From positions 1-26,713 of the IMG/VR virus record IMGVR_UViG_3300030382_001862: DNA of 26,713 bases. One strand, 5' to 3'. The notes under the pieces are model-generated. The model did not search any database and had not been told where the DNA came from. It worked only from the letters and a program-made list of their open reading frames with translations. Shown here one piece after another: positions 1-26,713 of this stretch. Origin of the DNA: a virus. Position numbers and translations under genes: made by a program. Each line of letters starts with the position of its first letter. The first letter of the stretch is position 1.

Positions 1-39
1 AAAAAACAGACCTGATGTCGTTTTTGGATATATGGGTGT

Positions 40-88
40 GAACTGGTTTGGTCCTGAACTGGTTTGATTCTGAACTTGAACTGGTTTT
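40..88. repeat. Three direct repeats GAACTGGTTT
   Basis: The 10-mer GAACTGGTTT occurs at 40, 56 and 78, and a truncated GAACT lies at 72. The cluster fills the only non-coding stretch left of the first gene (about 16-104). Its place between the HNH gene (if the ends join) and the terminase genes makes a terminase-binding or cos-proximal role possible, but a regulator-binding array is equally possible. No promoter consensus was recognised in it. The repeats are seen directly; the role is inference. Confidence 0.6.
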
Positions 89-104
89 GGTTTGAAAAAA
101 AAAA

Positions 105-230
105 ATGAGAAAAAAAATATTTTTGTTTCTAGGAATTATTTGCATGTCAATTTTATTTTCATGCACAACAAAGAAACATGTCATCACAGAATGGGATGGT
201 GACAGGGAAATCAGATGGCATTCAAAATGA
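105..230 (+). CDS. Small lipoprotein, 41 aa
   Basis: The start is an ATG preceded by a run of eleven A. The N-terminus MRKK is followed by a hydrophobic stretch (about residues 5-19) ending in a lipobox ILFSC, with the lipidated Cys at residue 20. That leaves a mature peptide of only 22 residues (CTTKKHVITEW and onward). The stop overlaps the preferred start of the ParB-like gene by ATGA, which supports real translation. The role is unknown. Known short phage lipoproteins include outer-membrane spanins (Rz1 type) and superinfection-exclusion lipoproteins. The lysis genes lie far away at 18107-18998, so an exclusion or membrane-marking role fits the position at least as well as a spanin. No acidic lipoprotein export signal follows the Cys. 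Confidence 0.7.
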   Translation: MRKKIFLFLGIICMSILFSCTTKKHVITEWDGDREIRWHSK

Positions 231-661
231 AAGTAAAAATCAAAAACATCCAGGATCTAATTTTTGCAGATTACAATCCAAGAATTTTGACCAAAGATCA
301 ACACAAGGATCTGACTGATTCATTGACCAGGTTTGGTTTTGTTGATCCTGTGATCATCAACATAAATTCATCCAGAAAAAACATGATCATTGGTGGACAT
401 CAAAGGACCAGAGTTTGGAAAAGCATGGGACATAAAACTGTTCCATGTGTTGAATTGGATCTGACAATTGATCAGGAAAAAGAATTGAATGTCAGATTGA
501 ACAAAAATGTTGGATCATGGGATCATGATATGTTGGCAAACAATTTTGATCTGGATGAATTGAAAGAATGGGGGTTTGATGATAAGGACTTTTTTCATAA
601 AATTGATGATCTGGATATTGAAAAAGATCCAAAAGAAAAATGTGAACATTGTGGCAAATAA
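227..661 (+). CDS. ParB/Spo0J N-terminal-domain protein
   Basis: The 144-residue product matches the ParB-like nuclease/partition N-terminal fold. It has an ADYNPR box near the start, a hydrophobic FVDPVII strand, and the IIGGHQRTRVWKSMG box typical of the family, followed by conserved helices (EKELNVRLNKN). The C-terminus ends in CEHCGK, half of a zinc-knuckle. The HTH DNA-binding half of true ParB is missing, so this is not a plasmid partition protein. Phage relatives often sit near DNA methyltransferases or terminases. The ATG at 227 overlaps the lipoprotein stop (ATGA); an upstream in-frame ATG at 215 would add four residues. It lies just upstream of the terminase genes, so a packaging or DNA-modification role is possible but unproven. 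Confidence 0.8.
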   Translation: MKVKIKNIQDLIFADYNPRILTKDQHKDLTDSLTRFGFVDPVIININSSRKNMIIGGHQRTRVWKSMGHKTVPCVELDLTIDQEKELNVRLNKNVGSWDHDMLANNFDLDELKEWGFDDKDFFHKIDDLDIEKDPKEKCEHCGK

Positions 662-672
662 AAAATAAATAA

Positions 673-804
673 ATGGCAAAGAAAAACATGTTTGTGTTTA
701 GGGAAAAAAGACACAAGAAAAGAAAAGGAATTCATTCCAAAAATAAAAGCAGAACAAAAGGTGGACCACAATATGTCAAACCATATATTGGACAAGGAAG
801 ATGA
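673..804 (+). CDS. Small basic protein, 43 aa
   Basis: This is an uninterrupted 43-codon frame with an A-rich leader and ATGG start. Its stop overlaps the start of the next gene by ATGA, a pattern used throughout this genome. The protein is very basic (many Lys/Arg, including HKKRKG and KSRTKGG) and ends in KPYIGQGR. That composition suggests nucleic-acid binding. I do not recognise a family. It sits between the ParB-like protein and a zinc-ribbon protein, just before terminase. Short length is the only reason for doubt. Confidence 0.7.
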   Translation: MAKKNMFVFREKRHKKRKGIHSKNKSRTKGGPQYVKPYIGQGR

Positions 805-989
805 CAAAATATAAATGTGAAAAATGTGGACTTGAAAAAGAATTGCAAAAAGCAACTTTGACTTTGATCAATGGATCATGGGAAACCAAGGAAGGATATT
901 GTGTGAAGTGTGAAATATATATGTCATCCAAACCAAAAGATGGAATTCCATCACTGATCAGAACAGAAGAAACATTGACAAAAAAATAA
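801..989 (+). CDS. Zinc-ribbon small protein, 62 aa
   Basis: Two CxxC pairs (Cys6/Cys9 in CEKCG and Cys34/Cys37 in CVKC) about 25 residues apart fit a treble-clef or ribbon zinc site. The remainder is a short basic/polar tail. The start overlaps the previous stop (ATGA), and its own TAA shares one base with the ATG of the terminase small subunit. Zinc-ribbon micro-proteins near terminase are common in phages but their function is generally unknown. Nucleic-acid or protein binding is inferred only from the zinc site. Confidence 0.75.
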   Translation: MTKYKCEKCGLEKELQKATLTLINGSWETKEGYCVKCEIYMSSKPKDGIPSLIRTEETLTKK

Positions 990-1465
990 TGGCAAAAGGT
1001 AGAAAAAAAATTCCAACAAAATTGAAAGAATTAAGAGGAACAACCAGAGCAGATCGCATGGTGGAAAATGAAATGGTGGTTGCACTTGTTCCAGAAATTC
1101 CAGATCCACCAAATTGGCTGTCAGAAATTGGGAAAATGGAATGGACCAAAGTGTGTTCAGAATTGTTTGGGAAACAAATGTTGCATCAAATTGATTTGAG
1201 ATTGATTGAATCATATTGCAATGCCATGTCTTTGCACATTGAAACTGAAATGATGTTGCGAAAAAAAGGAAGGATTCAAGTGTATAAAAATTCAGATGGA
1301 ACAATCAAACATGCACAGTCAGTTCCATTTCAAAAGATTGCCAATGATGCACTTGAAAGAGCATTGAAAATTGCCAGGGAATTTGGGTTGACACCATCAT
1401 CCAGGACTGGAATATCAGCACCAACAATCAACATTCAAAACAATCAAACAAATTATTTTGACTAA
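989..1465 (+). CDS. terS: Terminase small subunit, P27 family
   Basis: The 158-residue protein has the P27-family layout. A basic N-terminus (AKGRKKIPTKLKELRGT) is followed by the conserved PPNWLSEIGKMEWTKV helix, a central helical region (IDLRLIESYCNAM), and a C-terminal segment that ends in a Gly/Ser/Asn-rich tail (residues about 130-158). Small subunits recognise the packaging site and hand DNA to the large subunit. P27-type small subunits pair with the pfam03354-type large subunit seen next. The start is set by the TAATG overlap with the upstream gene. The 3' end overlaps the large-subunit gene by 8 bases. Confidence 0.9.
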   Translation: MAKGRKKIPTKLKELRGTTRADRMVENEMVVALVPEIPDPPNWLSEIGKMEWTKVCSELFGKQMLHQIDLRLIESYCNAMSLHIETEMMLRKKGRIQVYKNSDGTIKHAQSVPFQKIANDALERALKIAREFGLTPSSRTGISAPTINIQNNQTNYFD

Positions 1466-3023
1466 AAATAAAAAATATTTTTTTGATGAAAATGAAGCAG
1501 ACAGGGCAGTGTCATTCATTGAGAATTTTATCCAACACACCAAGGGTGAATTGACAGGAAAAAATATGATCCTGGAAACATGGCAAAAAGATGACATCAT
1601 CAAACCATTGTTTGGATGGAAAAACAAAGACACAGGTTTGAGAAAATACAGACAAGCATATATTGAGATCCCAAGGAAAAATGGAAAATCAACATTGGCA
1701 GCAGCCATTGCAATTTATATTTTATTTGCAGATTCAGAAAGGGGTGCAGAGGTGTTCAGTTGTGCAGGTGACAGATCACAAGCATCAATCATATTTGACA
1801 TTGCAAAAACAATGATCAGAAATGACAATGATCTGAAAAGCAGGGCAAAAATATACAGATCATCCATTGTCAATCCATCCAAAGGCAACACATATAAGGC
1901 ACTGTCAGCAGATGCAAAATTGCAACATGGACACAATGCACATGCAATCATTTTTGATGAATTACACACACAACCAAATGATGAATTGTTTCAGACCATG
2001 AAAACATCCATGGGTGCAAGGACACAGCCATTGTTGATTTCATTGACCACAGCAGGATCAAACAAAACTGATGGAAACATTTGTTGGATCATGCATGAAT
2101 ATGCACAGAAGGTGAAATTTGGAATCATTGATGATCCAACATTTTTGACAGTTATATATGCAGCAGATGAAAAGGATGACATTCAATTGGAATCAACTTG
2201 GAAAAAAGCAAATCCAAATTATGGTGTGTCTGTCAGAAAAGATTATATGAAAGAACAGGCAAAATTGGCAATGGATTTGCCATCATATGAAAACAGTTTC
2301 AGAAGGTTGCATTTGAATCAATGGACCACCAATGAAACAAAATGGATTTCAGACAAACAATGGATGGCATGTGATCAAAAATTGGACCTGGAAAAATTGA
2401 AAGATGTTGAATGTTTTGCAGGACTTGATCTGTCAAGTGTCAGAGATCTTTCAGCATTCACATTGTTTTTTCCAATGGATGATGGATCATATCACATCCT
2501 TCCTTTTTTCTGGTTGCCAAAATTGACAGCAGCAGAAAGATCAAAGAAAGACAAAGTTCCTTATTTGGAATGGGCAAGTCAAGGACATATTGAATTGACA
2601 GAAGGTGATGTTCAAGATTATGATTTCATCAGAAAAAAAATCAATGATCTTGCATTGCAATACAGGATCAAATCAATTGCATTTGACAGATGGAATGCCA
2701 GTCAGTTGGTGATCCAATTGCAAGATGATGGTGCAAACCTGTCACCATTTGGAATGGGATATGTGTCACAATCAGCACCAACAAAGGAAATGGAAAAGAT
2801 GGTTTTGAAAAAACTTTTGGTGCATGGTGGCAATCCTGTGTTGAGGTGGCAAATGCAAAATGTCCAATTGAAAATTGATCCTGCATCAAATTGCAAAGTT
2901 GACAAAGCAAAGTCCACAGAAAAAGTGGATGGTGTAATATCCACAATCATGTCAATTGGTGAATGGATGTTGTCAGACACAAAGGGATCTGTTTATGACA
3001 CAAGAGGAATCATTGCACTGTGA
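1458..3023 (+). CDS. terL: Terminase large subunit
   Basis: The 521-residue packaging motor has an N-terminal ATPase and a C-terminal nuclease. A modified Walker A is at residues 71-79 (IPRKNGKST), Walker B at 164-168 (IIFDE), and a coupling-type LLISLTTAG motif at 192-200. The nuclease acidic residues are probably D324 (AGLDLSS), D410 (SIAFDRW) and D491 (EKVDGV), in the RNase H-like order. The N-terminal HTKGELTGKNMILETWQ segment is a hallmark of the HK97-type family. No in-frame ATG exists before residue 37, which would cut into conserved sequence, so the TTG at 1458 is the likely start, overlapping the small-subunit gene. Paired with an HNH endonuclease, this family usually uses cos-type packaging. 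Confidence 0.95.
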   Translation: MTKNKKYFFDENEADRAVSFIENFIQHTKGELTGKNMILETWQKDDIIKPLFGWKNKDTGLRKYRQAYIEIPRKNGKSTLAAAIAIYILFADSERGAEVFSCAGDRSQASIIFDIAKTMIRNDNDLKSRAKIYRSSIVNPSKGNTYKALSADAKLQHGHNAHAIIFDELHTQPNDELFQTMKTSMGARTQPLLISLTTAGSNKTDGNICWIMHEYAQKVKFGIIDDPTFLTVIYAADEKDDIQLESTWKKANPNYGVSVRKDYMKEQAKLAMDLPSYENSFRRLHLNQWTTNETKWISDKQWMACDQKLDLEKLKDVECFAGLDLSSVRDLSAFTLFFPMDDGSYHILPFFWLPKLTAAERSKKDKVPYLEWASQGHIELTEGDVQDYDFIRKKINDLALQYRIKSIAFDRWNASQLVIQLQDDGANLSPFGMGYVSQSAPTKEMEKMVLKKLLVHGGNPVLRWQMQNVQLKIDPASNCKVDKAKSTEKVDGVISTIMSIGEWMLSDTKGSVYDTRGIIAL

Positions 3024-3480: not shown

Positions 3481-4677
3481 ATGGGATTCTTTGACCAGAT
3501 CACAAATCTTTTTTCAGGAAAATCAAAAAAACGATCAGCATATATTGATCCAAACAGATTCTATTTCAACAGCAATAGTGGTGCAATAGTAAACAAAACA
3601 ACAGCATTGGGATTCACACCAGTGTTCAATGCAGTCAGATTATTGTCAGAATCTATTTCACAGATTCCTTTGGAAATATGTGAAAAGACATCAACTGGTG
3701 ATATCATCAAAAGGAATGATCATCCATTGTCCAGGATCTTGACATTGAATCCAAATGCGAATCAAACCAAAGTTTCATTTTTTTCCAAGATCATTGTGGA
3801 CCTTTGTTTGGATGGAAATTCATATGTGTTCATTGAAAGGAATGGATCAGGTGTTCCAGTTGATTTGTATTGTATCAATGCAGATCACATTGAAATGAAA
3901 TACAAAGACAAAGAAATATTCTATCAAAACAAAGATGATGGAACAGTGTATGCAAACAATGAATTGTTGCATTTCAAAACACTTTCAACAAATGGATATT
4001 TGGGTGTGTCACCAATTGAACAATGTAAAAATGCAATTGGATGGGGTTTGGCAGTGGAAACATATGGAAACACATTTTTCAAAAATGGTGCAAAATTGTC
4101 TGGTGTTTTATCAACAGACAGACAGATGTCAGAACTATCAATTGAAAGATTGAAAACATCATTTCAGGAACAATATGCAAATCTGAATGATGCCAACAAA
4201 ACACTGATCCTGGAAGAAGGATTGAAGTTTCAAAGCGTGGCAATCAGCAATGAACAAGCACAATTCTTGGCATCCAGAGATATGGCAATCCAGGAAATTG
4301 CAAGGGTTTACAATATTCCACCACACATGTTGAAAGATCTTTCAAAATCATCTTTCAATAATATAGAACAACAATCAGCAGAATTTGTCAGATATACAGT
4401 TCAACCATATTTGTCAATCCTGGAAAGTGAAATGGATCTGAAATTGTTCAAACAAAATGAGCAGGGAAAAATGTTCACCAATTTTGATGTCAATGGTTTG
4501 TTGAGGGGATCACCAAATGATCGTGCATCCTTTTATCAAAAGATGATCACAATTGGTGCAATGACTGTCAATGAAGTAAGGGATCGTGAAAATATGAACA
4601 GAGTGGATTCAGGTGATGAATTGTATTTGCCAAAGAACATGGACACACTTGATGAAATAAACAAAGAAGAAAACTGA
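3481..4677 (+). CDS. Portal protein, HK97 family
   Basis: The 398-residue product has the HK97-type portal pattern. The N-terminus MGFFDQITNLF is followed by the conserved TALGFTPVFNAVRLLSESISQIPLEI segment, then HPLSRILTLNPN, DLCLDGNSYVFIERN, and the clip/wing region. A conserved helix (IQEIARVYNIPPHML, FNNIEQQSAEFV) lies at about residues 270-305. The portal forms the dodecameric DNA-entry channel at one head vertex and docks the terminase. It is the first gene of the head operon, 20 bases behind a consensus promoter. Its stop overlaps the protease start (TGATG). Confidence 0.95.
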   Translation: MGFFDQITNLFSGKSKKRSAYIDPNRFYFNSNSGAIVNKTTALGFTPVFNAVRLLSESISQIPLEICEKTSTGDIIKRNDHPLSRILTLNPNANQTKVSFFSKIIVDLCLDGNSYVFIERNGSGVPVDLYCINADHIEMKYKDKEIFYQNKDDGTVYANNELLHFKTLSTNGYLGVSPIEQCKNAIGWGLAVETYGNTFFKNGAKLSGVLSTDRQMSELSIERLKTSFQEQYANLNDANKTLILEEGLKFQSVAISNEQAQFLASRDMAIQEIARVYNIPPHMLKDLSKSSFNNIEQQSAEFVRYTVQPYLSILESEMDLKLFKQNEQGKMFTNFDVNGLLRGSPNDRASFYQKMITIGAMTVNEVRDRENMNRVDSGDELYLPKNMDTLDEINKEEN

Positions 4678-5618
4678 TGCCAAGTATTGAATGCGAAAAT
4701 GGAAAATGGAAATGGGGTGTTCAAGGTGAATGCATATATGATTCCAAAGAAATGGCAGATGAAGAAAATATTGATTATCAAGAAAAATCAGAAAATAAAG
4801 AAATTATGAAAAAAAATGAACAAAGACATGTGAAGGAAATCATTGAAGATGATGAAACCATCACAATTGTATATGATAAAACAGATGACTTTGAAGGAAT
4901 AAAAGTCAAAGAATCAGACACACCAGATGAAGGTCCAGAAACAGATGTTGAGGATGAATATGAAGAAGAAGAAACAGAAGAAGAAGAAACAGAAAGATCC
5001 AACATTTGGACAGATCCAACACAGATGGAAAAAAGATTCTACAATATAAAATTGGAAAAAAGAAACAGTGGATCAGAAACCACACCAGTGGTGGTTGGAC
5101 ATGCAGCAGTGTTTGACACATTGAGTGAAGATCTTGGTGGATTCCAGGAACGAATCAACAAGAATGCATTTGATGGGGTGTTGGACAATGATGTCAGAGC
5201 ATTTTTCAATCATGATCCAAATCATCTTTTGGCAAGAACATCATCAGGAACATTGAAATTGTCAGTGGATGAAAAAGGTTTGAAATATGAATTTTCAGTT
5301 CCAGACACATCATCAGGAAGGGATCTGTTGGTGTCAATGGAAAGGGGTGATATCAGTCAAAGTTCCTTTGCATTCACAATTGATGATGATTCATGGGACA
5401 AAGAAAATGGAATGGATATCAGAACAATCAACAAAGTCAAAAGATTGTATGATGTCAGTCCAGTGTCAATCCCTGCATATCCAGGTGCAAATGATCTGGC
5501 AGTGGCACAAAGAGGGTTGGCAATACATAACGAACAAAAACAAAGAAAGGATGAGGAAATTGACTTGATCAAAAGAAACTTATTAGAATTAAAAATCAAA
5601 ATACTTAAAAGAAAATAA
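4677..5618 (+). CDS. Prohead protease with acidic N-terminal extension
   Basis: The 313-residue protein carries an HK97-type (S78-like) maturation protease at about residues 119-285: RFYNIKLEKR, VVVGHAAVFDTLS, FFNHDPNHLLAR (probable catalytic His179) and GDISQSSFAF (probable catalytic Ser229/230), then YDVSPVSIPAYPGAN. It cleaves the capsid delta domain after assembly. Before it lies an extension of about 115 residues. This begins with a Cys-containing motif (ECENGKWKWGVQGEC) and runs into a Glu/Asp-rich low-complexity stretch at 80-107, which is absent from the compact HK97 protease. The C-terminus is a basic/helical tail. The start is fixed by TGATG overlap with the portal stop. Confidence 0.9.
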   Translation: MPSIECENGKWKWGVQGECIYDSKEMADEENIDYQEKSENKEIMKKNEQRHVKEIIEDDETITIVYDKTDDFEGIKVKESDTPDEGPETDVEDEYEEEETEEEETERSNIWTDPTQMEKRFYNIKLEKRNSGSETTPVVVGHAAVFDTLSEDLGGFQERINKNAFDGVLDNDVRAFFNHDPNHLLARTSSGTLKLSVDEKGLKYEFSVPDTSSGRDLLVSMERGDISQSSFAFTIDDDSWDKENGMDIRTINKVKRLYDVSPVSIPAYPGANDLAVAQRGLAIHNEQKQRKDEEIDLIKRNLLELKIKILKRK

Positions 5619-5619: not shown

Positions 5620-6864
5620 ATGAAAAAATCTATCGTATTAAAAGAAGAAAGATCAGAATTCATTGCAAATCTTGAAACAATCAAGGATCTTGCAACAAAT
5701 GAAAACAGAGATCTTTCAGATGATGAAAACACAGAAGTGGATTCATTACTAGCAAAAATTGATGATGTTGATGCACTTATTGAAAGAGCAGACAAAGTTG
5801 AAGCACAACTGAAAAGATCAGCATCATTGTCAGGTGCAACAGTTCAACACAGCATCCCTGCAAATGAAACAAGTTCATGGTCCTTATTTAAGGCAGTGAA
5901 TGAAATCAGAAGTGGTGGACAATTGACTGGACTTGAAAAAGAATTACATCAAGAAGCAGAAGGTGAAGCAAGAAAAGGATTGCAAGGAATTGGAATTCCA
6001 TCTTTCATGACAGAAAAAAGACAAATTGACCAAGGAACATCAGCAATTGCACCAACATCAGTGGGTGCATATGTGGATTCATTAGCACAATCTGGTGTAT
6101 ATAGCAGAGTGGGTTTGAATGATCTTGGAACAGTTGCAGCAGACACAGTGTTGCCAATTGCAGGTGGATCAACTGTTGCATGGGCAACAGAAGTTGCAGC
6201 AGCAGCAGATGGTGGTGCTGACTTTGACAAAGTTACATTGACACCAAAAAGATTGACTGGATATGCAAACCTGTCAAATGTTATTTTGGCACAAAATGGA
6301 ACAGCAGCAGAAGCAGCAGTGATGAATGATATGGGAAGAAACATGGCAACACAAATTGATGCAGCAATGTTTGGATCAGCATCAGTTGCAGCAGCACCAG
6401 CAGCAATTGTTGCAACAGCAGGAACATTGACATTCACTGAATCAGCAGCAGGTGGATCAGCAGGTCTTGCATCAGATGCACTTGAAGCAATTCAAACAAT
6501 TGCAGATGATCATGGACTTGATGGAAATCTTGCATTTGTGAATCAATGGGCAATGTATAATGGCTTAAAAGCAGCAACACAAGTTTCATCAGTGTTGGCA
6601 GCATACATTGATGACAGATTGATGGGCTATCCTGGATATTTCAGTTCAGCACCTGCAACAGCAGGTGGACCACCACCAACATCAGCAGATGGTTTATTTG
6701 GTGACTTTGGTCGTGTTTACATGGCAACTTTTGGACCATCAAATATCTTGGTTGATCCATATTCAAGAGCAGTGAATAATGAAGTGCGTTTGGTGATGAA
6801 TAACCACATGGACTGGGGTGTTGCATCAGGTGCATCATTTGTGAAATATACATCTGTATTATAG
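5620..6864 (+). CDS. Major capsid protein, HK97 fold
   Basis: The 414-residue protein follows the protease by one base. Residues 1-65 are a charged coiled coil (EFIANLETIKDLATNENRD, VDALIERADKVEAQL), matching the delta/scaffold domain, so no separate scaffold gene is needed. The mature part holds HK97-fold features: VGAYVDSLAQSGVYSRVGL (N-arm/E-loop side), WATEVAAA, KRLTGYANLSNVIL, and a C-terminal region with SRAVNNEVRLVMNNHMDWGV. Ala codons are almost all GCA. The gene ends in three consecutive in-frame TAG codons (6862-6870), then a strong terminator, consistent with very high expression. The protease cleavage site cannot be placed from sequence alone. Confidence 0.93.
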   Translation: MKKSIVLKEERSEFIANLETIKDLATNENRDLSDDENTEVDSLLAKIDDVDALIERADKVEAQLKRSASLSGATVQHSIPANETSSWSLFKAVNEIRSGGQLTGLEKELHQEAEGEARKGLQGIGIPSFMTEKRQIDQGTSAIAPTSVGAYVDSLAQSGVYSRVGLNDLGTVAADTVLPIAGGSTVAWATEVAAAADGGADFDKVTLTPKRLTGYANLSNVILAQNGTAAEAAVMNDMGRNMATQIDAAMFGSASVAAAPAAIVATAGTLTFTESAAGGSAGLASDALEAIQTIADDHGLDGNLAFVNQWAMYNGLKAATQVSSVLAAYIDDRLMGYPGYFSSAPATAGGPPPTSADGLFGDFGRVYMATFGPSNILVDPYSRAVNNEVRLVMNNHMDWGVASGASFVKYTSVL

Positions 6865-10416: not shown

Positions 10417-10848
10417 ATGGCAACAAGTGGAATAATAAATGGAACTAAATTTGGAATTTATGAAGATTCTAAATTAGTAGCATATGCAACATCAGGATCA
10501 ATTTCAATCAATCATTCAGCACGAGAAACATCCAACAAAGAAGATCTGGGATGGAAAACTGTGATGGAAGGACAAAGAGATTGGGAAATCAGTGTTGAAG
10601 GAATGGTGGCATTCCTTGATTTAAGTGCAGGTGCAATTGCAGGATCAACAGTTGATGAATTGTTCACATCCTACATCACAACCAGAGGAACATACACGAT
10701 CAGTTTTGAATCATCAGAATCTGGTGACAAAAAATGGTCTGGAAAAGGTTACATCAGCAGCATTAGTATGGATGCACCGAATGAGGAATCAACAACTTAT
10801 TCTGTTTCCTTTACTGGAACAGCAGCATTGACAATGGCAACAGTATAA
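10417..10848 (+). CDS. Major tail tube protein, copy 1
   Basis: The 143-residue product has the TP901-1/HK97-like tail-tube signature. The N-terminus MATSGIINGTKFGIYEDS is followed by VAYATSGSISINHSARETS, the WEISVEGMVAF strand, FESSESGDKKWSGKGYISSISM, and the closing PNEESTTYSVSFTGTA. Tube proteins stack as hexamers along the tape measure. A paralogue follows at 10879. The leader is A-rich, with a short ACATTAAAA direct repeat at 10374-10398. Confidence 0.9.
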   Translation: MATSGIINGTKFGIYEDSKLVAYATSGSISINHSARETSNKEDLGWKTVMEGQRDWEISVEGMVAFLDLSAGAIAGSTVDELFTSYITTRGTYTISFESSESGDKKWSGKGYISSISMDAPNEESTTYSVSFTGTAALTMATV

Positions 10849-17700: not shown

Positions 17701-18105
17701 GTGCCAGAAGTAACAGATTCAGCATATTGTTGGACAATTGGTGATGGTGAAACATGGGATGGAATATATCAGTTCAATTGGAATGTTGCAACAGATGTGT
17801 CAACATATACAACCAGAATTTTGGTGGGTGTGAAATTGCAACAGGGTGTGGTTTATGATCCAGGTGAAGGTGAATTGATCATGGACTGGGGTGATGTGAA
17901 TGGAAGTGTTTCATATGTATATGACAGAGGGACTGGATCAATCATTGGTGGCAGCACATCAGGATCAGTGTTGATTTCATTCAGTGGTGCAGCACAATTA
18001 TATTATAGGTTGGTGTTTTGGAAAGTCAGTGCATCAGCAGCAACAGCAACAGCAACAACACAAACAGATGGATGTCAATTAACTATTAAAAAATTAGAAG
18101 ATTAA
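14743..18105 (+). CDS. Tail tip / baseplate protein, 1120 aa
   Basis: This is the largest gene, placed just after the tape measure where distal tail and host-recognition proteins lie. Residues 1-160 are beta-rich (TLRFDTTFKSVSKRIWWVG, GGLEIQYDCEGDEKYAPIVGS, QLTFTDGIGKLKEI) and look like a distal-tail/hub head. A Trp/Tyr-rich middle follows, including IKWNGIFYFYQI. Near residue 925 a STSESIKAYVDAQV linker of the kind seen in tail fibres leads to a C-terminal beta domain of about 190 residues ending LTIKKLED. The linker suggests that the end is a receptor-binding or trimerisation head. No enzymatic motif was found. The function is inferred from position and domain style. Confidence 0.8.
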   Translation: MATVNSVYTLRFDTTFKSVSKRIWWVGIYDRTSFQYNGSFDITDGGLEIQYDCEGDEKYAPIVGSKLNLNFMLDLDDIAHQEFIDDILGYTSKVYIEGDIFILVRVSNGSGAIIFDGEYLMDLDTLPDVASPFPIQLTFTDGIGKLKEIAFESATNDATATEYHLLGHQQFNWWIGEVIQHTKFYKNPANPDGFWDDRDSKSAFQTCCRWYNSEHYYSPTSTSKWSDVLQMTSAKMNWARKYNPSNGQINIANAYDVLKAICKSWGMRVIKWNGIFYFYQIKELDIPNEYPGTFDQKWTGVLDEHMYRYRASGNPTSQYNSMGFRRWDRHANYMYNVSHPGARTQKLEGGSYKFLPVLKEVKVNLVHEGFQNVFGGIPVGNAYNTNGMPFISGPFLNSAQFKFETTLYIDVEGPGGPNCTFFDLFQVPLRIIAMPPGATTIGQGLATLTYDPVANTYGWDDTPTYVGLDLGVIINHTSMGGPYAGSGLHTIPLAPQLSFPGYRDASTDYWITNSSPIYATNQWGTWINIQTGNPYGSGYIFPTWSNPLNSGALNPPSWSTGSFNNYLSVIQPVATTQATMNTIFINTQTDDSHKIDWGDVFWGDGPEFWDDSALRIRTGASTWEFSDWTSSDWLPRNYTQGLPPSGSGHEFTALLCYAMKRSQSQVIRRANFKLADSPVGTSYLGFEIQVNPVGNIQDIYQDAYGTPETTRYFFRRGSFNMITNEWDGEWIESTEVELGGGNNNSSKIAGGTNLVGRGTELSAAIGSAAAPHDSRARLMLLIVSEEVVADVAITTLEIETNRSEEIDPETQFKIGDDYNLKDGDEVWLCFKDGYKMKLTLTADVTTESTTISFSSVTPTASSNGFSSIQIPMLKLFENMNRKTSGQIAGFDVDATSLTKGSVSIDGFIDSDSMSGATNSKLSTSESIKAYVDAQVHDGEVMPDFSMQQCSGTATTSATNGVVGPVPFDTKGEQGTASTLEQYGAAGVPEVTDSAYCWTIGDGETWDGIYQFNWNVATDVSTYTTRILVGVKLQQGVVYDPGEGELIMDWGDVNGSVSYVYDRGTGSIIGGSTSGSVLISFSGAAQLYYRLVFWKVSASAATATATTQTDGCQLTIKKLED

Positions 18106-18106
18106 A

Positions 18107-18268
18107 ATGAAGAATGAAATAAAAGACACAGCAGAAATCTTATTGATGAATGGAACAGCAGTTGGATTTCATATTACACAGTGCAATGAAATATTGACAT
18201 TTGTTTCTTTGATCCTGGCAATTTCCATTTCCATTTTCAAATTGACACAATGGATCAGAAAAAAATAA
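18107..18268 (+). CDS. Small membrane protein, holin candidate, 53 aa
   Basis: The ATG lies one base after the tail-tip stop. The product has a soluble N-terminal half (KDTAEILLMNGTAVGFHITQ), one hydrophobic helix (about residues 29-47, ILTFVSLILAISISIFKL) and a basic end WIRKK, which predicts N-out/C-in topology. It overlaps the next short gene by 19 bases and leads into the M15 peptidase, so a holin or lysis-regulator role is likely. A two-helix protein at 18792 competes for the holin call. Confidence 0.7.
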   Translation: MKNEIKDTAEILLMNGTAVGFHITQCNEILTFVSLILAISISIFKLTQWIRKK

Positions 18269-18393
18269 AAAAACAAAAGGGTGTTTTGTCAGTGGTGGAA
18301 ATCAAACAATTGGTCCAAGATGTTTTCAAAAATGAAAATAAAAATGAAAAAATGGTGGTTAGATCCAGAAAGAAATATGGCAGTAAAAGGTGA
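18250..18393 (+). CDS. Small basic protein in lysis module, 47 aa
   Basis: The frame starts at the ATG overlapping the end of the membrane protein gene and ends 16 bases inside the M15 peptidase gene. The protein has a hydrophobic/charged helix (GVLSVVEIKQLVQDVF) between two strongly basic ends. No signal or membrane helix is present. The double overlap fits translational coupling typical of lysis modules. Length and lack of homology knowledge keep confidence moderate. Confidence 0.6.
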   Translation: MDQKKIKKQKGVLSVVEIKQLVQDVFKNENKNEKMVVRSRKKYGSKR

Positions 18394-18775
18394 ATTGAAA
18401 TATTTTCAGTTGGATGAATTTGATTCACCAGATCAACCAGGATCTGGAAAAGAAAATATGGATCTGAATTTTGTTCACAGATTGGATGATGCCAGAGGAT
18501 TGGCAGGTGTTCCATTTAAGATCACCAGTGGATTCAGATCACCAGAATATCATCTGCAATTGAAATCAAGAGGATATCACACAGCAAAAAATTCAGCACA
18601 TTTGGAAGGGTTGGCAGCAGATATTGCAACACCAGATTCCAGGTCAAGATACAAGATCATAAGATCATTGATGGATGTTGGATTCACCAGGTTTGGAATT
18701 GGTGAAAGATTCATTCATGTTGATTGTGATCAAAGCAAAGACAAATCCCAAAATGTTTGTTGGGACTATTACTAA
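18377..18775 (+). CDS. M15-family peptidase, endolysin
   Basis: The 132-residue protein fits the short Peptidase_M15_3 (D-Ala-D-Ala carboxypeptidase-like) endolysins. LKYFQLDEFDSP at the start is followed by FKITSGFRSPEYH, the zinc motif SAHLEGLAAD (His75, Asp82) and GERFIHVDCD (His114), all required ligands. Arg54 matches the family substrate residue. It should cut peptide bonds in host peptidoglycan. The start ATG at 18377 gives the canonical N-terminus; a GTG at 18281 in the same frame would add 32 non-conserved residues overlapping another gene. No signal peptide is seen, so release needs a holin. Confidence 0.9.
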   Translation: MAVKGELKYFQLDEFDSPDQPGSGKENMDLNFVHRLDDARGLAGVPFKITSGFRSPEYHLQLKSRGYHTAKNSAHLEGLAADIATPDSRSRYKIIRSLMDVGFTRFGIGERFIHVDCDQSKDKSQNVCWDYY

Positions 18776-18791
18776 TTAAAAAACAAATAAA

Positions 18792-18998
18792 ATGAAAAAA
18801 TGGTTTTCAGGAATTATTGTGAAACAAATATTTCACAGTAAGAAATTTATATATGCAATCAGTTCAATCATTGTTCCTGCAATATGCACAGCACTTGGTG
18901 TTGATGAACAAACAGCAACAAATCTGTTTTTTGCCTTGTTAAGTTTGGCAGGATTTCAGGGACTTGCTGACTTTGGAAAAGAAGCAAAAAGGAAATAA
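18792..18998 (+). CDS. Holin-like membrane protein, 68 aa
   Basis: After a basic start (MKKWFSGIIVKQIFHSKK) come two hydrophobic stretches, at about residues 19-35 (FIYAISSIIVPAICTAL) and 44-58 (NLFFALLSLAGFQGL), then a charged tail DFGKEAKRK. The size, two helices and position next to the peptidase fit a class II holin. A terminator follows within seven bases, closing the late operon. Whether this or the 53-residue protein at 18107 makes the lethal lesion cannot be decided from sequence. Confidence 0.75.
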   Translation: MKKWFSGIIVKQIFHSKKFIYAISSIIVPAICTALGVDEQTATNLFFALLSLAGFQGLADFGKEAKRK

Positions 18999-19004
18999 AA
19001 TATC

Positions 19005-19036
19005 AAAAAAAGGGGTGGAATTTTCCACCTTTTTTG
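19005..19036 (+). terminator. Intrinsic terminator after lysis module
   Basis: GGTGGA (19014-19019) pairs with TCCACC (19024-19029) around a four-base loop, extended by G-U and A-T pairs from the flanking A and T runs. Six T follow. The A-run on the left makes it potentially bidirectional. It separates the late genes from repeat copy 2 and the replication module. Confidence 0.85.
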
Positions 19037-19063
19037 TCTTATTGTTAAAAACCACAGAATGTC

Positions 19064-19165
19064 CACACAGCCATTTTAAGGGTGTCTGTTGCCATTTTGT
19101 TACTGTTGATAACTGTTAGTATTAAACAATTGAGATCTTGCAACAGGATCAATTTCCTAGATAAG
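19064..19165 (+). repeat. 102-bp intergenic repeat, copy 2
   Basis: This copy matches 3297-3398 at 92 of 102 positions. TGTTGATAA is at 19104, with a direct repeat ACTGTT ten bases apart. The pair CTGTTGC / GCAACAG could form a 7-bp long-range stem; copy 1 keeps this stem with a G-U. It lies right after a terminator and 17 bases before the metallophosphoesterase ATG, so the promoter for the replication module must lie in or very near it, although no TAnnTTTG box is visible. Confidence 0.9.
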
Positions 19166-19182
19166 AAAAAAAGCAAAAAAAT

Positions 19183-20412
19183 ATGTATAAAAAATACAAA
19201 GATGAGGTGATCAAAATGTGGTTGGATGGGTTTGGATCGTATCATATTGCACAGGAATTGATTGAAAAACATCATTTGGATCTTGGAAAAAAAGAGTTGA
19301 AAAACATTGTTGAACAACTGATCAAACATCATTTGGTTGACAAAGAAATTTTGAAATCCAATGTCAAACTTTCAAAACAAAAACAGAAACAACAAGATCT
19401 GAACAGAATTGAAAGGAAGTCATTCAGAGAACATGCAAGGATTGAAAATGCAGTTTCAGAATATGGAAAGGAAATTGCAACACTTTTGAAAGATTACAAT
19501 CTGACATTAAAAACAAAACAACACAGATCAAAAACCAATGATGCAGTCATGGTGGTCCATTTGACAGACACACATTTCAATGAACTGGTGAACATTGATG
19601 GAAACAAATATGATTTCCTGATTGCATCAAAACGAATCCAGAAATTTGCAACAGCAGCAAAGAAACATGCAAAGTTGTATAATATCAAAAACATCTTATT
19701 GGCAATCACTGGTGATCTGATGAATTCAGACAGAAGGTTGGATGAACTTTTGCAGATGTCAACAAACAGAGCAAAGGCAACATTTTTGTCAGTGAATATT
19801 TTGACACATTTCATCAATGATCTGAATTCAATTGGCAATGTGAATGTGGCATGTGTCACTGGAAATGAATCCAGAGTGAAAGAACACAATGGATGGGTGG
19901 ATGCAACAGCATCAGACAATTATGATTTCACCATATATGAAATGTTGAGGTTGTTATTTGATGGAAAAAAAGGGGTGTCATTCCTGGATTGTGGACTTGA
20001 AGTTGTTGTGAATGTAGCAAATAAAAATGTTTTGTTGATTCATGGACATCAATTGAAAGGAATGAATGATGTTCAATTTTCAAAACTGATCACAAAGCAT
20101 TTGAACAAAGGAACAAAAATTGACTTTGTAATTTGTGGACATAAGCATCATTGCATCATTGGTGACTTTTATGCACAAGCAGGAAGTCCAGTTGGTGCAA
20201 ATTCATATTCTGACAATGCATTGAATCTTTCATCATGTGCAAGTCAGAACATATATATTTTCACAAAGGATGGCAGGAATGATGTCAGGATTGATCTGCA
20301 AAACACTGATGACTTTGATGGATATGAAATCAATTTGAAACTTGCAGAATATAATGCAAAATCATTGTTGAAAACAAAAACCAAAAAGACATTGTTTGAA
20401 GTGGTGATATAA
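19183..20412 (+). CDS. HTH-metallophosphoesterase
   Basis: The 409-residue protein has an N-terminal helix-turn-helix-like region (about residues 5-55, MWLDGFGSYHIAQELIEKH), a basic coiled linker (60-110) and a calcineurin-like phosphoesterase. Metal ligands are all present: D129-T-H131, GD177-178, GNE227-229 in place of the more common GNH, H287-G-H289 and CGHKH318-322. Related phage enzymes resemble SbcD/Mre11-type nucleases or phosphatases. The DNA-binding N-terminus favours a nucleic-acid substrate, but this is inference. It is the first gene after repeat copy 2 and is followed by its own terminator, so it forms a single-gene unit. Confidence 0.88.
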   Translation: MYKKYKDEVIKMWLDGFGSYHIAQELIEKHHLDLGKKELKNIVEQLIKHHLVDKEILKSNVKLSKQKQKQQDLNRIERKSFREHARIENAVSEYGKEIATLLKDYNLTLKTKQHRSKTNDAVMVVHLTDTHFNELVNIDGNKYDFLIASKRIQKFATAAKKHAKLYNIKNILLAITGDLMNSDRRLDELLQMSTNRAKATFLSVNILTHFINDLNSIGNVNVACVTGNESRVKEHNGWVDATASDNYDFTIYEMLRLLFDGKKGVSFLDCGLEVVVNVANKNVLLIHGHQLKGMNDVQFSKLITKHLNKGTKIDFVICGHKHHCIIGDFYAQAGSPVGANSYSDNALNLSSCASQNIYIFTKDGRNDVRIDLQNTDDFDGYEINLKLAEYNAKSLLKTKTKKTLFEVVI

Positions 20413-21174: not shown

Positions 21175-21593
21175 TGGAAACACACAAATCAAAGATCACC
21201 AGGATCATCAAACAAGATCCTGATGAATGGACCAAGGCAAATGGCATGTTCAAATTTGAAATTGAATTTGAAAATGGACACAAAGGCATCATGTATAAAA
21301 AGACACCAGACACACCACATGCAGTTGGTGATTTGTTGGAATATACATTGAACGAAAAAGGAACAATCAAAGTTGCATATGATGGTCCAAAAAAAGGATT
21401 TCAAGGACAATCAAATGATGATGTGATCATGTTGCAATGTATGTATAAAGCAGCAGCAGCATTTTATGCACACAGATCATCAATCACAGAAATACAAGTT
21501 TCATCCACAGCAAAATTGTGGTTTGACACAGCAAAGGACCAATTGTCTGGTGCAGAGATTGAACAAGATACAAATGATGATGTGCCATTTTAA
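21171..21593 (+). CDS. SSB-like OB-fold protein
   Basis: The 140-residue protein has a beta-rich core (KITRIIKQ, MFKFEIEFENGHKGIMYKK, GDLLEYTLNEKGTIKVAY) consistent with an OB fold. A helical region (IMLQCMYKAAAAFY, AKLWFDTAKDQL) follows, and then an acidic tail ending NDDVPF. That tip closely resembles the DDDIPF tip of bacterial SSB, which recruits replication and repair proteins. It is thus a likely single-strand binding protein of the replication cluster. It is not a close relative of standard SSB, so the family call rests on the fold pattern and the tip. Confidence 0.65.
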   Translation: MMETHKSKITRIIKQDPDEWTKANGMFKFEIEFENGHKGIMYKKTPDTPHAVGDLLEYTLNEKGTIKVAYDGPKKGFQGQSNDDVIMLQCMYKAAAAFYAHRSSITEIQVSSTAKLWFDTAKDQLSGAEIEQDTNDDVPF

Positions 21594-21594
21594 G

Positions 21595-21987
21595 ATGGAA
21601 AAATCAGTCCAAATTGCAAAAAGTGTTTTGGCAAATATGTTCAACATTGATGTGATCCATTTTGACAAACATGTTTCAAGATCAGCAAACATCAATGAAG
21701 CCAGAAGATTTCTGATCTATTATTTAGTAAAGGAATTGAATGTCAAATATTTGCACATGAAACATCATGTCCCTGCATTGACAAATCATGCAACAGCAAT
21801 CCACCATTTCAAAAAGATGGAACAATTGATGGATGTGGAATGGATCACCAGGCAAAGATATGATGAATTCAAAAAGAAAATGGACACAGAAGGTCACAGT
21901 CATTTGTTGAAAGATTACACAAATGCAATCAAGGAAATGCATATGATCAAAGACAGGTTGGAAAAATTGAAAGACATGATTGAATGA
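21595..21987 (+). CDS. DnaA C-terminal-domain-like DNA-binding protein
   Basis: The 130-residue protein resembles domain IV of DnaA, which reads origin boxes. Residues 30-78 hold INEARRFLIYYLVKELN, a turn, and TNHATAIHHFKKM, the counterpart of the DnaA signature (DHSTVIHA in hosts). The AAA+ domain is absent; the C-terminus (85-130) is a charged coiled coil instead. It may mark the phage origin, or compete with host DnaA at its boxes. The ATG at 21595 follows the SSB-like stop by one base; a longer frame from 21466 would overlap that gene and is rejected. Confidence 0.75.
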   Translation: MEKSVQIAKSVLANMFNIDVIHFDKHVSRSANINEARRFLIYYLVKELNVKYLHMKHHVPALTNHATAIHHFKKMEQLMDVEWITRQRYDEFKKKMDTEGHSHLLKDYTNAIKEMHMIKDRLEKLKDMIE

Positions 21988-22166
21988 CAGAATTCTTTGA
22001 CAAAATAAATTTGAGCAATGCAAGATCAGATGATGAAACCTTTGATCAATACAAAGAAAGATTGAAAAAGAATCAGATCAAGATCAAGATGCATTTGAAA
22101 GGTGAAGTGATCTGGGATTCAAAATCACTTGGAACATATATCAGAAAGCACCATGGAAATATCTGA
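21984..22166 (+). CDS. Hypothetical protein, 60 aa
   Basis: The start overlaps the previous stop (ATGA). The product has an acidic helix (RSDDETFDQYKERLKKNQIKI) and a compact end LKGEVIWDSKSLGTYIRKHHG. No family is recognised. Its 3' end overlaps the next gene by 14 bases. Confidence 0.75.
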   Translation: MTEFFDKINLSNARSDDETFDQYKERLKKNQIKIKMHLKGEVIWDSKSLGTYIRKHHGNI

Positions 22167-22572
22167 ATTCATAAGGATCAAAAGAAATGTGGTTGAGGTG
22201 ATCCAAACTGAATTGTCTGGACATCCACAAAGGAAGGTCATTGAATATGTGGATCTGTTGGAAAATGAGATCATCAAATTGGATGGGATCATTGACACAC
22301 ATGAAAGAATCAATGAAAGTTGTGATCCAGGATCAATTGAATTTGATGTTGAAAATATCACAGATGATTCAGAATTTTATATTGGATCAGTATATACAAG
22401 GAAGGATCTTGAAAATGAATGCAATGAATATTTTGAAAAATACAACAGGGACACTGATCTTGAAAAATTAGATCCTGATGACTATCATCAGCAGATGTCC
22501 AAGGCATACAACAGATTGACAGTCAGAAAGCATATGAGATTGAAAAAATTCAAAAACAAAAATCAACTATAA
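22153..22572 (+). CDS. Hypothetical acidic protein, 139 aa
   Basis: The first ATG in frame is at 22153; an upstream TTG at 22129 would add eight residues. The protein is highly charged and helical (IRIKRNVVEVIQTEL, RKVIEYVDLLENEIIKLDGI), has an acidic middle (DVENITDDSEFYIGS) and a basic end (KHMRLKKFKNKNQL). No motif is recognised. The gene lies in the densest GATC patch of the window. Confidence 0.72.
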   Translation: MEISEFIRIKRNVVEVIQTELSGHPQRKVIEYVDLLENEIIKLDGIIDTHERINESCDPGSIEFDVENITDDSEFYIGSVYTRKDLENECNEYFEKYNRDTDLEKLDPDDYHQQMSKAYNRLTVRKHMRLKKFKNKNQL

Positions 22573-22573
22573 T

Positions 22574-22879
22574 ATGAAAGCACAAATCACAAGTTTCAAA
22601 GAACAGACATCAAAATATGGTGACACATTTTTTTATGTTTTTTTTAAGGATCAAAATGGAAAAAGTTTCAGATCATGTATATATCAGAACATGAGAAACT
22701 TTGCCAAATGGAAAAAAGTATTGAGATCTGGAATGGTCCTGGACAATCTATCTTTGAAATCAAAAGGATTGATTGATGCAGATTCATCATTCCAAATTGT
22801 AGGGATCAGAAATTTCAAAAAACCAGTTGTGATCCAGGATCAACCAGTCATTCAACCTGTTCAAACAACACTTTTTTAA
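22574..22879 (+). CDS. OB-like protein with possible clamp-binding tail
   Basis: The 101-residue protein begins with a beta-rich region (AQITSFKEQTSKYGDTFFYV, FFKDQNGKSFRSCIY), then a helix/basic part (NFAKWKKVLRSG) and another strand pair, consistent with a small OB-type nucleic-acid binder. The C-terminal ten residues include Pro/Gln-rich sequence ending QTTLF, which resembles the QxxLF motif that binds the bacterial sliding clamp. It is located between a hypothetical gene and the HTH initiator. The OB and clamp assignments are inferences from pattern. Confidence 0.6.
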   Translation: MKAQITSFKEQTSKYGDTFFYVFFKDQNGKSFRSCIYQNMRNFAKWKKVLRSGMVLDNLSLKSKGLIDADSSFQIVGIRNFKKPVVIQDQPVIQPVQTTLF

Positions 22880-22880
22880 T

Positions 22881-23552
22881 ATGGACAATCCATCATATTA
22901 TGCAATCATCCCTGCCAATGTTAGATATGCAAACATCAAACCAAATGCAAAATTGTTGTATGGTGAAATCACAGCACTTTCAAATCAGAAAGGATATTGT
23001 TGGTCATCAAATAACTATTTTGCAGAATTGTATGGTGTTTCAAAGAACACAATCAGTTTGTGGATCAACCAATTGAAGAAACATGGATTCATTCATGTTG
23101 AGGTGATAAGGGATCAAAACAAGCAGGTGATCAAAAGGACAATGACTATCATCAAAAATGATGACAGGTCACCAATTTTCAAAGAACAGGGTGTCATCAC
23201 AAATGGTGAAAGTAATATCATAAAAAATAATACTACAATGAATATTCTATCATTAAGAAAAATGAAATTTGGATCAGAAGTTTCAGATGAAAGTCAAGGA
23301 ATTTTGTCTGTTGATCAAGCCAATGAATTCCTGGAATATTGGACAGAAGAAACAAAAAGCAAAACAAATCCAAGAATGAAATTTGAACTTGAAAGAACTT
23401 GGAACACTAAAAAAAGATTGTTGAGGTGGAAAAATAACAATGAAAAATGGAACAAAAAAAGTCCAGGATCATCCAGATCAAAGATCCAGAATTCAGTTGA
23501 TGAATGGATCAAAGCAAAGGATTTCATTAAAAAACAACAGTCATGCAAATAA
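22881..23552 (+). CDS. HTH replication initiator-like protein
   Basis: The 223-residue protein starts with the typical YYAIIPANVRYANIKPNAKL segment of phage/plasmid winged-helix (HTH_36-type) initiators. It continues GEITALSNQKGYCWSSNNYF and the recognition helix VSKNTISLWINQLKKHGFI (about residues 55-75). The C-terminal half is charged and helical, with EFLEYWTEETKSK and a basic stretch. Such proteins bind the phage origin and recruit a helicase. No helicase is recognised here, so the host enzyme may be recruited. Confidence 0.8.
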   Translation: MDNPSYYAIIPANVRYANIKPNAKLLYGEITALSNQKGYCWSSNNYFAELYGVSKNTISLWINQLKKHGFIHVEVIRDQNKQVIKRTMTIIKNDDRSPIFKEQGVITNGESNIIKNNTTMNILSLRKMKFGSEVSDESQGILSVDQANEFLEYWTEETKSKTNPRMKFELERTWNTKKRLLRWKNNNEKWNKKSPGSSRSKIQNSVDEWIKAKDFIKKQQSCK

Positions 23553-23923
23553 AAGAATATCAAACAAAAGACCTGCAATTGAAATGTGTTGATCTATTGG
23601 CAAAAACATATTTGGAATTGGGACAAAAATCAGATTCAGAAACAATGATCACATTGTCACAAATATTTGCAGATGACCTGCAAACAGATTTCCAAGATCT
23701 GACAATGGATGACATCATTCATGCATTCAAGCAGGGGGTGCGAAATACAGATGATTTCCATTTGACTGTGAAAACTTATTACAAATGGATCAAAGCACAC
23801 AGACAGATCATTTGGAACAACATTGAAACATCAGCAGATCAAATGGATAAGCGTTTGAAATACAGGTCAAGGAATGGAACTGGTTTGAAAAAAATATCAA
23901 TCAATAAAACTTTAATATCATGA
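23543..23923 (+). CDS. Hypothetical helical protein, 126 aa
   Basis: The ATG overlaps the initiator gene by ten bases. The protein is all-helical in appearance: KDLQLKCVDLLAKTYLEL, SETMITLSQIFADDLQTDFQ, MDDIIHAFKQGVRN, FHLTVKTYYKWIKAHRQII. The conserved-looking RNTDDFHLTVKTYYKWIKAH segment suggests a small DNA-replication accessory factor such as a helicase loader partner. This rests on its coupling to the initiator gene, not on a recognised motif. Confidence 0.75.
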   Translation: MQIKEYQTKDLQLKCVDLLAKTYLELGQKSDSETMITLSQIFADDLQTDFQDLTMDDIIHAFKQGVRNTDDFHLTVKTYYKWIKAHRQIIWNNIETSADQMDKRLKYRSRNGTGLKKISINKTLIS

Positions 23924-25054: not shown

Positions 25055-25105
25055 GATCTGGAAAATACAATTCCAATTGATTCCACCAAAGATCTGGATG
25101 ATGTT

Positions 25106-25255: not shown

Positions 25256-25436
25256 ATTTGAATTGAATGATCCTGGAATTGGAAAAGAAATGATGAAGGA
25301 ATTGATGGTTGATCATATGGTGGAAATCCTGGATCAATGGACCAAAGGAAATGCAATCATCACAATTGAATTTGAAACAATTAAAAAAGAAAAAAATGAA
25401 AGCACTGACAAATGGGATCATATATACATTAACTAG
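25239..25436 (+). CDS. Hypothetical protein, 65 aa
   Basis: The frame reads MKATIEFELNDPGIGKEMMK, DHMVEILDQWTKGNAIITIE and ends in a charged stretch. It overlaps the previous gene by 17 bases and the next membrane protein by 41 bases. Length and lack of a recognised family make this a modest call. The pattern of strand, helix, strand suggests a folded domain. Confidence 0.55.
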   Translation: MKATIEFELNDPGIGKEMMKELMVDHMVEILDQWTKGNAIITIEFETIKKEKNESTDKWDHIYIN

Positions 25437-25542
25437 CATCATCATGTTGCCAGTGATCCTGTGCATATTTGTGGGATCATTGGTTTGGTTTATGTTTATT
25501 GAAACAATAAAGAAAGTCAAAGAACAACAGAACAATGAATGA
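25396..25542 (+). CDS. Small membrane protein, 48 aa
   Basis: The ATG at 25396 is preceded by six A. The product has a strongly hydrophobic stretch (about residues 8-35, IIYTLTSIIMLPVILCIFVG then SLVWFMFI) and a basic tail (TIKKVKEQQNNE). A frame extended to an ATG at 25309 would add 29 residues overlapping another gene and is less likely. Its end overlaps the nuclease gene by eight bases. Possible roles include membrane regulation or superinfection exclusion; none is shown. Confidence 0.6.
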   Translation: MKALTNGIIYTLTSIIMLPVILCIFVGSLVWFMFIETIKKVKEQQNNE

Positions 25543-25897
25543 ACAACAATTGCAGGAATCATTTGTGAAATATATTCAGTTGAAATATAAAGGGATCAGA
25601 TTCTGTTCATCACTTGGTGGAATCAGGACCACAATGAAACAGGCAATCAAAGCAAAGAATGGTGGATATGTGAAAGGGATGCCAGACATGCAGATCATGT
25701 CAGCCAGGGGTGGATTCCATGGATTGTTCATTGAATTAAAGACAGACAAAGGAAGGGCAACCAAACACCAGAAGGAATGGATCAATGATCTGATCAGGTC
25801 TGGATATTATGCAGAGGTGTGCAAAGGGATTGATCAGGCAATGGATTGTGTGGATTCATATATGCAATTGAAACAAACAAAGGTTTGCAAATGTTAA
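25535..25897 (+). CDS. VRR-NUC nuclease
   Basis: The 120-residue protein matches the compact phage VRR-NUC fold of the PD-(D/E)xK superfamily. Key parts are Asp51 in KGMPDMQI, Glu67-x-Lys69 in LFIELKTDKGRATKHQKEW, Gln79, and the closing GYYAEVCKGIDQAMDCV helix-strand. VRR-NUC enzymes act on branched DNA as Holliday-junction or flap nucleases, so it may resolve packaged or replicating concatemers. The start overlaps the upstream membrane protein gene; the next gene starts one base after its stop. Confidence 0.85.
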   Translation: MNEQQLQESFVKYIQLKYKGIRFCSSLGGIRTTMKQAIKAKNGGYVKGMPDMQIMSARGGFHGLFIELKTDKGRATKHQKEWINDLIRSGYYAEVCKGIDQAMDCVDSYMQLKQTKVCKC

Positions 25898-25898
25898 G

Positions 25899-26231
25899 AT
25901 GAAAAGAACAAAGAAAGAAAACAAAATCAAAAAGGAACTGATGAAATTATATCAGACCATTGCAGATGAAAGACCACACTATTGCACAGGGTGTGGCAGA
26001 TCAGATGTTCCATTGTCACACAGCCACATCATTCCAGTCAGCAGAAGGAAGGACCTACAATTGGAAAAAGAGAATATCACATATCATTGTTTGAGTATGG
26101 GACACCAAAGGAAGGGATGCCATGAAATGCATGAATCAAGATCAGGAAGGATGATGTTGTTGGACTATCACAAGAATCTGGAATATATATTGGAAACAGA
26201 TCCAGAATATTATTTCCTGATCACTGAATAA
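25899..26231 (+). CDS. HNH-like nuclease or zinc protein, 110 aa
   Basis: After a basic N-terminus, CTGCGRSD (Cys29/Cys32), SHSHIIPVSRRKDL (His43 in the beta-beta-metal hairpin), ENITYHCL (Asn59, Cys64) and GCHEMHES (Cys74/His75) form an HNH-type zinc and metal site. Such proteins resemble phage recombination/HNH nucleases. Whether it cuts DNA is not certain because it lacks the DH pair seen in the next gene's HNH. It follows the VRR-NUC gene directly. Confidence 0.75.
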   Translation: MKRTKKENKIKKELMKLYQTIADERPHYCTGCGRSDVPLSHSHIIPVSRRKDLQLEKENITYHCLSMGHQRKGCHEMHESRSGRMMLLDYHKNLEYILETDPEYYFLITE

Positions 26232-26236
26232 AAGGG

Positions 26237-26279
26237 TTTGAAAAAAAAGGGTGTGGGTGTTTGAAAAAAAAGGGGTGTG
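26237..26279. repeat. Direct repeats TTTGAAAAAAAAGGG
   Basis: Two copies of TTTGAAAAAAAAGGG(G)TGTG begin at 26237 and 26260, 23 bases apart, at the start of the 131-base gap before the HNH gene. The gap also has an A/T-rich block (26313-26345). No promoter consensus or terminator was seen. If the ends are joined, the region is close to terminase and could be packaging-related; this is only a possibility. Confidence 0.7.
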
Positions 26280-26362
26280 TGTTTTGGAAAAGACCTGGAC
26301 TGTGCAGGAATTAAAGAATAAAAAAATAAAATAAAAACATTAAGAATTAAGATCAGATCACA

Positions 26363-26713
26363 ATGCCAACACTACCAAAGGAAAGAAATAAGCCATGGGT
26401 TGTATCAAGGGAAAGAAACAAGCCAGGATCAAGAGCAGCCAAATCACACAATGAAATGATGCATGTGTATCAGACACAGCAGTGGAGATCAACAAGGTCC
26501 TATCACATACAAATGAATCCAATTTGTGTTCATTGTAAGAAGAAAGAAAACAGGGTGGTGGCAGGTGATGTGGTTGATCACATCATCCCTATCAGACAGG
26601 GTGGTGATCCCTTCAATAAAAATAATTTACAAACACTGTGTCATGGTTGCCACAGCATCAAGAGTAGGCAAGAAAGGGACACCATCACATACACAGGTGA
26701 TAGTATGTATAGA
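26363..26713 (+). CDS. HNH endonuclease (3' end off window)
   Basis: The 117 codons present run off the right edge with no stop. Features are a basic Pro/Lys N-terminus, ICVHC (Cys55/Cys58), VVDHIIPIRQGGD (Asp72-His73), NKNNLQTLCHGCHSIK (Asn88, Cys93, Cys96, His97), all HNH ligands. In HK97-like cos phages this endonuclease lies beside terminase and assists cos cleavage. If the window is circular, the frame continues for four codons at 1-12 and stops at TGA 13-15. Confidence 0.88.
   Translation, partial: MPTLPKERNKPWVVSRERNKPGSRAAKSHNEMMHVYQTQQWRSTRSYHIQMNPICVHCKKKENRVVAGDVVDHIIPIRQGGDPFNKNNLQTLCHGCHSIKSRQERDTITYTGDSMYR

Follow-up and report, generated by a model that had tools for sequence, protein, structure and literature searches.

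Genome-wide removal of CpG from an HK97-type phage and rapid turnover of this state among its relatives

Results

The stretch of DNA analysed here, hereafter the window, comprises the 26,713 nucleotides of IMG/VR record IMGVR_UViG_3300030382_001862. Its gene order, as read from Pfam matches (large terminase subunit TerL, portal, S78 protease, HK97 capsid, tape measure), is that of an HK97-type siphovirus, and every recognised gene lies on the + strand. A ParB_N protein (215–661, PF02195) is followed by the terminase small subunit TerS (989–1465, PF05119), TerL, which was used for the tree below (1458–3023, PF20441 and PF03354), the portal protein (3481–4677, PF04860), the prohead protease (4677–5618, PF04586) and the HK97-type major capsid protein (5620–6864, PF05065). 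Two adjacent paralogous tail-type proteins (10417–10848 and 10879–11307) match one and the same protein of the relative G001, with 80% and 37% identity. Further downstream lie the tail tape measure protein (12111–14732, PF10145), an endolysin-like M15 peptidase (18281–18775, PF08291), a metallophosphatase-type exonuclease (19183–20412, PF00149, phrog_284), an HTH_36 replication initiation protein (22881–23552, PF13730, phrog_270/19658) and a VRR-NUC nuclease (25535–25897, PF08774). The right end carries a small HNH-like protein (25899–26231), recognised by reading its sequence with no Pfam match and 79% identical in G001, and an HNH endonuclease (26363–26713, PF01844) that runs past the end of the window. 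A tail protein of 1120 aa had no match in one viral scan.

The best match among GTDB genomes is L054, a phage contig in a Flavobacteriales MAG whose TerL is 57% identical to that of the window. In L054 the counterparts of the right-end genes (VRR-NUC, HNH, HNH) directly precede TerS, with a homologue of the small HNH-like protein at the same place in the gene order, which suggests that the window is a near-complete genome. The host is probably a marine member of the Bacteroidota, and probably of the Flavobacteriales, as indicated by this one MAG contig, which could be mis-binned. The remaining relatives are contigs from IMG/VR and, judging by the identifiers of their samples, probably mostly of marine origin. 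Searches of cultured phages returned mostly Firmicutes phages for TerL, at no more than 47% identity, and one weak match to a Roseobacter phage for the major capsid protein.

In relatives, a fusion of ParB_N with a DNA methyltransferase is encoded next to TerS, and the ParB_N protein of the window corresponds to its N-terminal part (60–64% identity to residues 1–128 in L142 and to the fusion of L143). The fusion lies upstream of TerL in L142, L143, L149 and L152, and its methyltransferase half is missing from the window, G001, L003, L004 and L134. Neither Pfam matches nor motifs pointed to a methyltransferase among the window proteins examined.

An exact count over the whole window (1–26713) found 38 CG dinucleotides where the base counts predict 829, which gives a strand-symmetric odds ratio of 0.045 at a GC content of 35.8%. 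The original prediction, made by eye, had put these values at about 40, 800, 0.05 and 35%, and is confirmed. Every 1-kb bin contains 5 CG or fewer and, from the CG positions, the longest CG-free gap extends over 3.2 kb (16032–19237). The segment 22081–22560, given earlier as an example without CG, indeed has none, and the true gap around it reaches from 21355 to 23740, with flanking CGs at 21353 and 23741. The codon preferences described at the same time were borne out by counting: 242 of 261 Arg codons are AGA or AGG, NCA codons prevail for Ala (GCA, 474/506), Ser (TCA, 334/527) and Thr (ACA, 393/512), and TTG is used 312 times against 65 for TTA. The suspected enrichment of CA and TG is also real, with a CA/TG ratio of 1.80. 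What had not been noticed is that TpA (0.32) and AG/CT (0.66) are low, that several palindromes are entirely absent, and that the words CTC, GCT, CCC and CTTC are distributed asymmetrically between the strands.

In order to locate the depletion, CpG ratios were computed by site. They are 0.16 at codon positions 1–2, 0.03 at positions 2–3, 0.02 at codon junctions and 0.05 outside the listed genes; the depletion is weaker only in the CGN codons of Arg (0.16). When genes were randomised with their proteins kept, they carried about 25 times more CG, the observed number being 0.04 of expectation (z −39), and when codon usage was kept as well it was still 0.10 of expectation (z −26). Chance is ruled out by the protein-preserving randomisation, and a codon or translation bias by the equally low CG at junctions and in intergenic DNA. 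These data show that CpG was removed from the window genome-wide at the level of the DNA sequence, mainly through synonymous changes.

We then compared the CpG state of relatives on a tree of TerL from 58 phages, on which ratios below 0.25 were scored as low. The low state requires at least nine changes on the tree, six of which are forced by strongly supported branches. At 81–86% TerL protein identity, L003 and L034 have ratios of 0.07–0.11 and L004 and G001 of 0.68–0.70; this group also includes L272 (0.06) and L035 (0.09). Similarly, L140 (0.06) is the sister of L141 (0.44). These results show repeated and rapid gain or loss of the CpG-depleted state among relatives. The original prediction would have been refuted if all related flavobacterial phages and hosts had shown the same ratio, which is not the case for these relatives and the Flavobacteriales genomes sampled. 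The view that such depletion is not usual for phages held against four cultured flavobacterial phages (0.46–0.94, 12 kb each) and failed within the window's own family, where 21 contigs, including overlapping and near-identical ones, lie below 0.15. No description of CpG-depleted phages emerged from our search of the open-access literature.

G001 is syntenic with the window and has essentially all genes in common with it, yet its CpG ratio is 0.70. This one full-length comparison shows a CpG state that does not track gene content. Because the same genes coexist with a ratio of 0.70, the cause probably lies outside the phage, as far as can be judged from the window/G001 pair. A phage-encoded agent is unsupported, given this shared gene content and the finding that the ParB_N-methyltransferase fusion occurs independently of the CpG state; in group B, L149 and L152 retain the fusion and are still depleted of CpG, a finding that also counts against the model proposed below.

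The depletion is nearly independent of context, NCGN words lying at 0.00–0.15 in group A, 0.02–0.20 in group B and 0.00–0.15 in L140. Words that are not palindromic (ACGA, ACGC, ACGG, CCGA, CCGC and GCGA) are also at 0.00–0.20 in these three. It is unusual that the depleted groups avoid the CpG dinucleotide itself in nearly every context. In G001 (L023–L024) and L004, CCGC/GCGG is enriched 3.3-fold and 2.3-fold respectively and CCGG is nearly absent.

Other short words are missing from the window as well. There is no AGCT, GGCC, GTAC or NCGN palindrome and, among 6-base palindromes, no GGATCC, CTGCAG, TTTAAA, GTGCAC or ATTAAT; GATC (287) and TGCA (311) are abundant. Palindromes are missing far more often than non-palindromic words of equal length: those below 0.2 of expectation are 3/10 palindromic against 1/99 non-palindromic 4-mers, and 5/20 against 5/906 for 6-mers. 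The avoided sites also differ between relatives. G006 has 0 GATC against 112 expected and lacks TTTAAA (0/36), G012 lacks CTAG (0/36), G017 (L225–L226) is poor in CATG (3/85), and G016 (L224) has neither CCAG/CTGG (0/66 in 16 kb) nor GATC. Both features are expected of phages that avoid restriction sites, since host enzymes differ, and the missing palindromes carry the signature known for avoidance of Type II sites. Among the testable 6-base palindromes of G017, 11/33 are nearly absent. GATC, which is enriched in the window, is fully absent from many relatives in the groups around the window (L026–L031, L134, L274).

On the coding strand of the window, CTC occurs 0 times against 78 for GAG, GCT 8 against 258 for AGC, CCC 12 against 232 for GGG, and CTTC 3 against 125 for GAAG. 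TpA, at 0.32, is depleted in every context except ATAT, which is at about 1.0 in group A. Loss of TpA is separable from loss of CpG, as L004 has ratios of 0.36 for TA and 0.68 for CpG. Neither the TpA depletion nor the strand-asymmetric words follow from Type II restriction. The asymmetry could reflect either the one-way orientation of Type III sites or selection at the RNA level, two possibilities that are inseparable in the window since all its genes lie on one strand.

Discussion

The absence of 4- and 6-base palindromes, together with the rapid turnover of CpG avoidance between close relatives, favours restriction as the selective force. Two causes had been offered in the original prediction, CpG methylation with deamination and selection against host restriction sites; the second is supported and the first is not. 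If hosts methylated CpG and the 5-methylcytosine then deaminated, the loss would result from mutation, not selection. This would agree with the CA/TG ratio of the window, with the 75 of 133 changed CG sites relative to G001 that are CA or TG, and with the context-free depletion, which a CpG methyltransferase would produce. However, G016 and G017, with CpG ratios of 0.06 and 0.17, have CA/TG ratios no higher than 1.02 and 1.07, respectively. The window has an excess of 92 per kb for CA and TG combined, which nearly equals the sum of its deficits in TA (70 per kb) and CG (30 per kb), so that most of it balances the TpA deficit rather than the CG deficit, and deamination alone gives no reason for a loss of TA. 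Where L141 CGs can be aligned, L140 has TG 19, AG 17, CT 12 and CA 6 times, that is 25 TG/CA against 29 AG/CT. Conversion of Arg CGN to AGR moreover needs a C-to-A transversion, and 28 of 42 CGN codons of G001 are AGA or AGG in the window. The CGN share of Arg codons falls from 0.34 in G001 to 0.08 in the window at nearly constant Arg content (3.8% against 3.7%). CpG is thus not retained at Arg CGN sites where its loss by deamination would alter the protein, contrary to what that process predicts. Across the phage contigs compared, which are not phylogenetically independent, the CGN share also correlates with junction CpG (rho 0.66). Deamination is rejected by the CA/TG, substitution and Arg-codon tests, and we consider it extremely unlikely. 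It is also quite improbable that the phage takes its composition from a CpG-free host genome. Phages often follow host composition, and the Flavobacteriales, as the likely host order, reach down to 0.34 (median 0.63) in 77 samples of at most 20 kb each. Nevertheless, none of these samples is free of CpG, and their TA minimum (0.56) and CA maximum (1.29) likewise leave none near the window. Close relatives with the same genes span 0.04 to 0.70, and the absent palindromes are a signature of restriction.

Selection on mRNA would account for both the CpG/TpA loss and the strand asymmetry if a host RNase or toxin cut CpG, UpA, CUC, GCU, CUUC and CCC, and the scarcity of GCT, CTC, CCC and CTTC on the strand to which all genes belong fits such an activity. 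Against it, the missing GGATCC, CTGCAG and TTTAAA point to double-stranded DNA; groups B and L140 are depleted of CpG with no avoidance of CTC or GCT, so the two are separable; and L004 avoids CTC, CCC and TA yet has a CpG ratio of 0.68. We regard this explanation as very doubtful. The loss of CpG might instead be the sum of many ordinary CG-containing Type II sites, with no agent acting on CpG as such. In favour of this, depletion in group A is strongest in CCGG, TCGA, GCGC and ACGT, numerous other palindromes have been eliminated, and G001 and group C show site-by-site patterns. The asymmetric contexts at 0.00–0.20 in groups A, B and L140 argue against this sum, and an agent at the CpG level is favoured because separate 4-bp enzymes would have to combine some ten specificities, and to do so on several occasions; a mere sum of sites thus seems unlikely. 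That host restriction is the selective force, in either of these two forms, is likely, and we lean slightly towards the form that includes a putative CpG-level defence.

In the model that we propose, the phage lineage would be under strong selection from the restriction systems of its host population. Ordinary Type II enzymes in these hosts would purge particular palindromes, and a putative further activity would make any CpG costly regardless of the neighbouring bases. Candidates for it are a restriction enzyme with CG at the core of its site or, alternatively, two activities in different host strains, a methyltransferase that marks CpG in one and modification-dependent (Type IV) cleavage at the marked CpG in the other. 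The phage, in which no methyltransferase was detected, would respond by deleting its CG targets. It is possible, though we would put it somewhat short of an even chance, that marine Bacteroidota carry an undescribed defence against bare CpG, common enough to have caused several independent erasures in phages; either a nuclease with a 2-bp core or CpG methylation with modification-dependent cutting would serve. Our searches of the open-access literature yielded no restriction enzyme known to target CG alone. M.SssI of Spiroplasma is a bacterial methyltransferase specific for CG whatever its neighbours, a property also required of the agent postulated in the hosts of the window; unlike that agent, an enzyme that only methylates would exert no selection against CpG.

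Vertebrate RNA viruses also show suppressed CpG and UpA with high CA/TG, mostly through synonymous changes, and the window resembles them in all these respects. It differs in being a bacterial dsDNA phage, which faces neither ZAP nor RNase L, in its much stronger depletion, and in that CpG loss is separable from TA loss among its relatives. Elimination of sites is a widespread anti-restriction strategy of dsDNA phages (Rusinov et al. 2018, PMC6286503), and the near-complete loss of short palindromic Type II sites from the window is of this kind. In contrast, the window erases a dinucleotide in nearly every context, and that paper mentions neither CpG nor dinucleotides and reports no systematic strand-asymmetric avoidance. 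Phages are known to drop sites of 4–6 bp; the erasure of a dinucleotide from a whole genome, gained and lost several times within one family, would mean, if the proposed explanation is true, that some bacteria attack DNA through a cue of two bases. Syntenic relatives that differ in CpG already provide a natural experiment, and a list of the words erased could be used to predict the defence specificities of uncultured hosts.

As for the strand-asymmetric words, Type III sites are 5–6 bp long, unlike the oriented words of the window, which have 3–4 bases. Phage T7 keeps its EcoP15I sites in one orientation only (PMC3874151), and GCT, CTTC and CCC are likewise found in one orientation in the window. 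Oriented words were also observed in relatives, namely GCTT in L003 and L272 and CAATC in G006.
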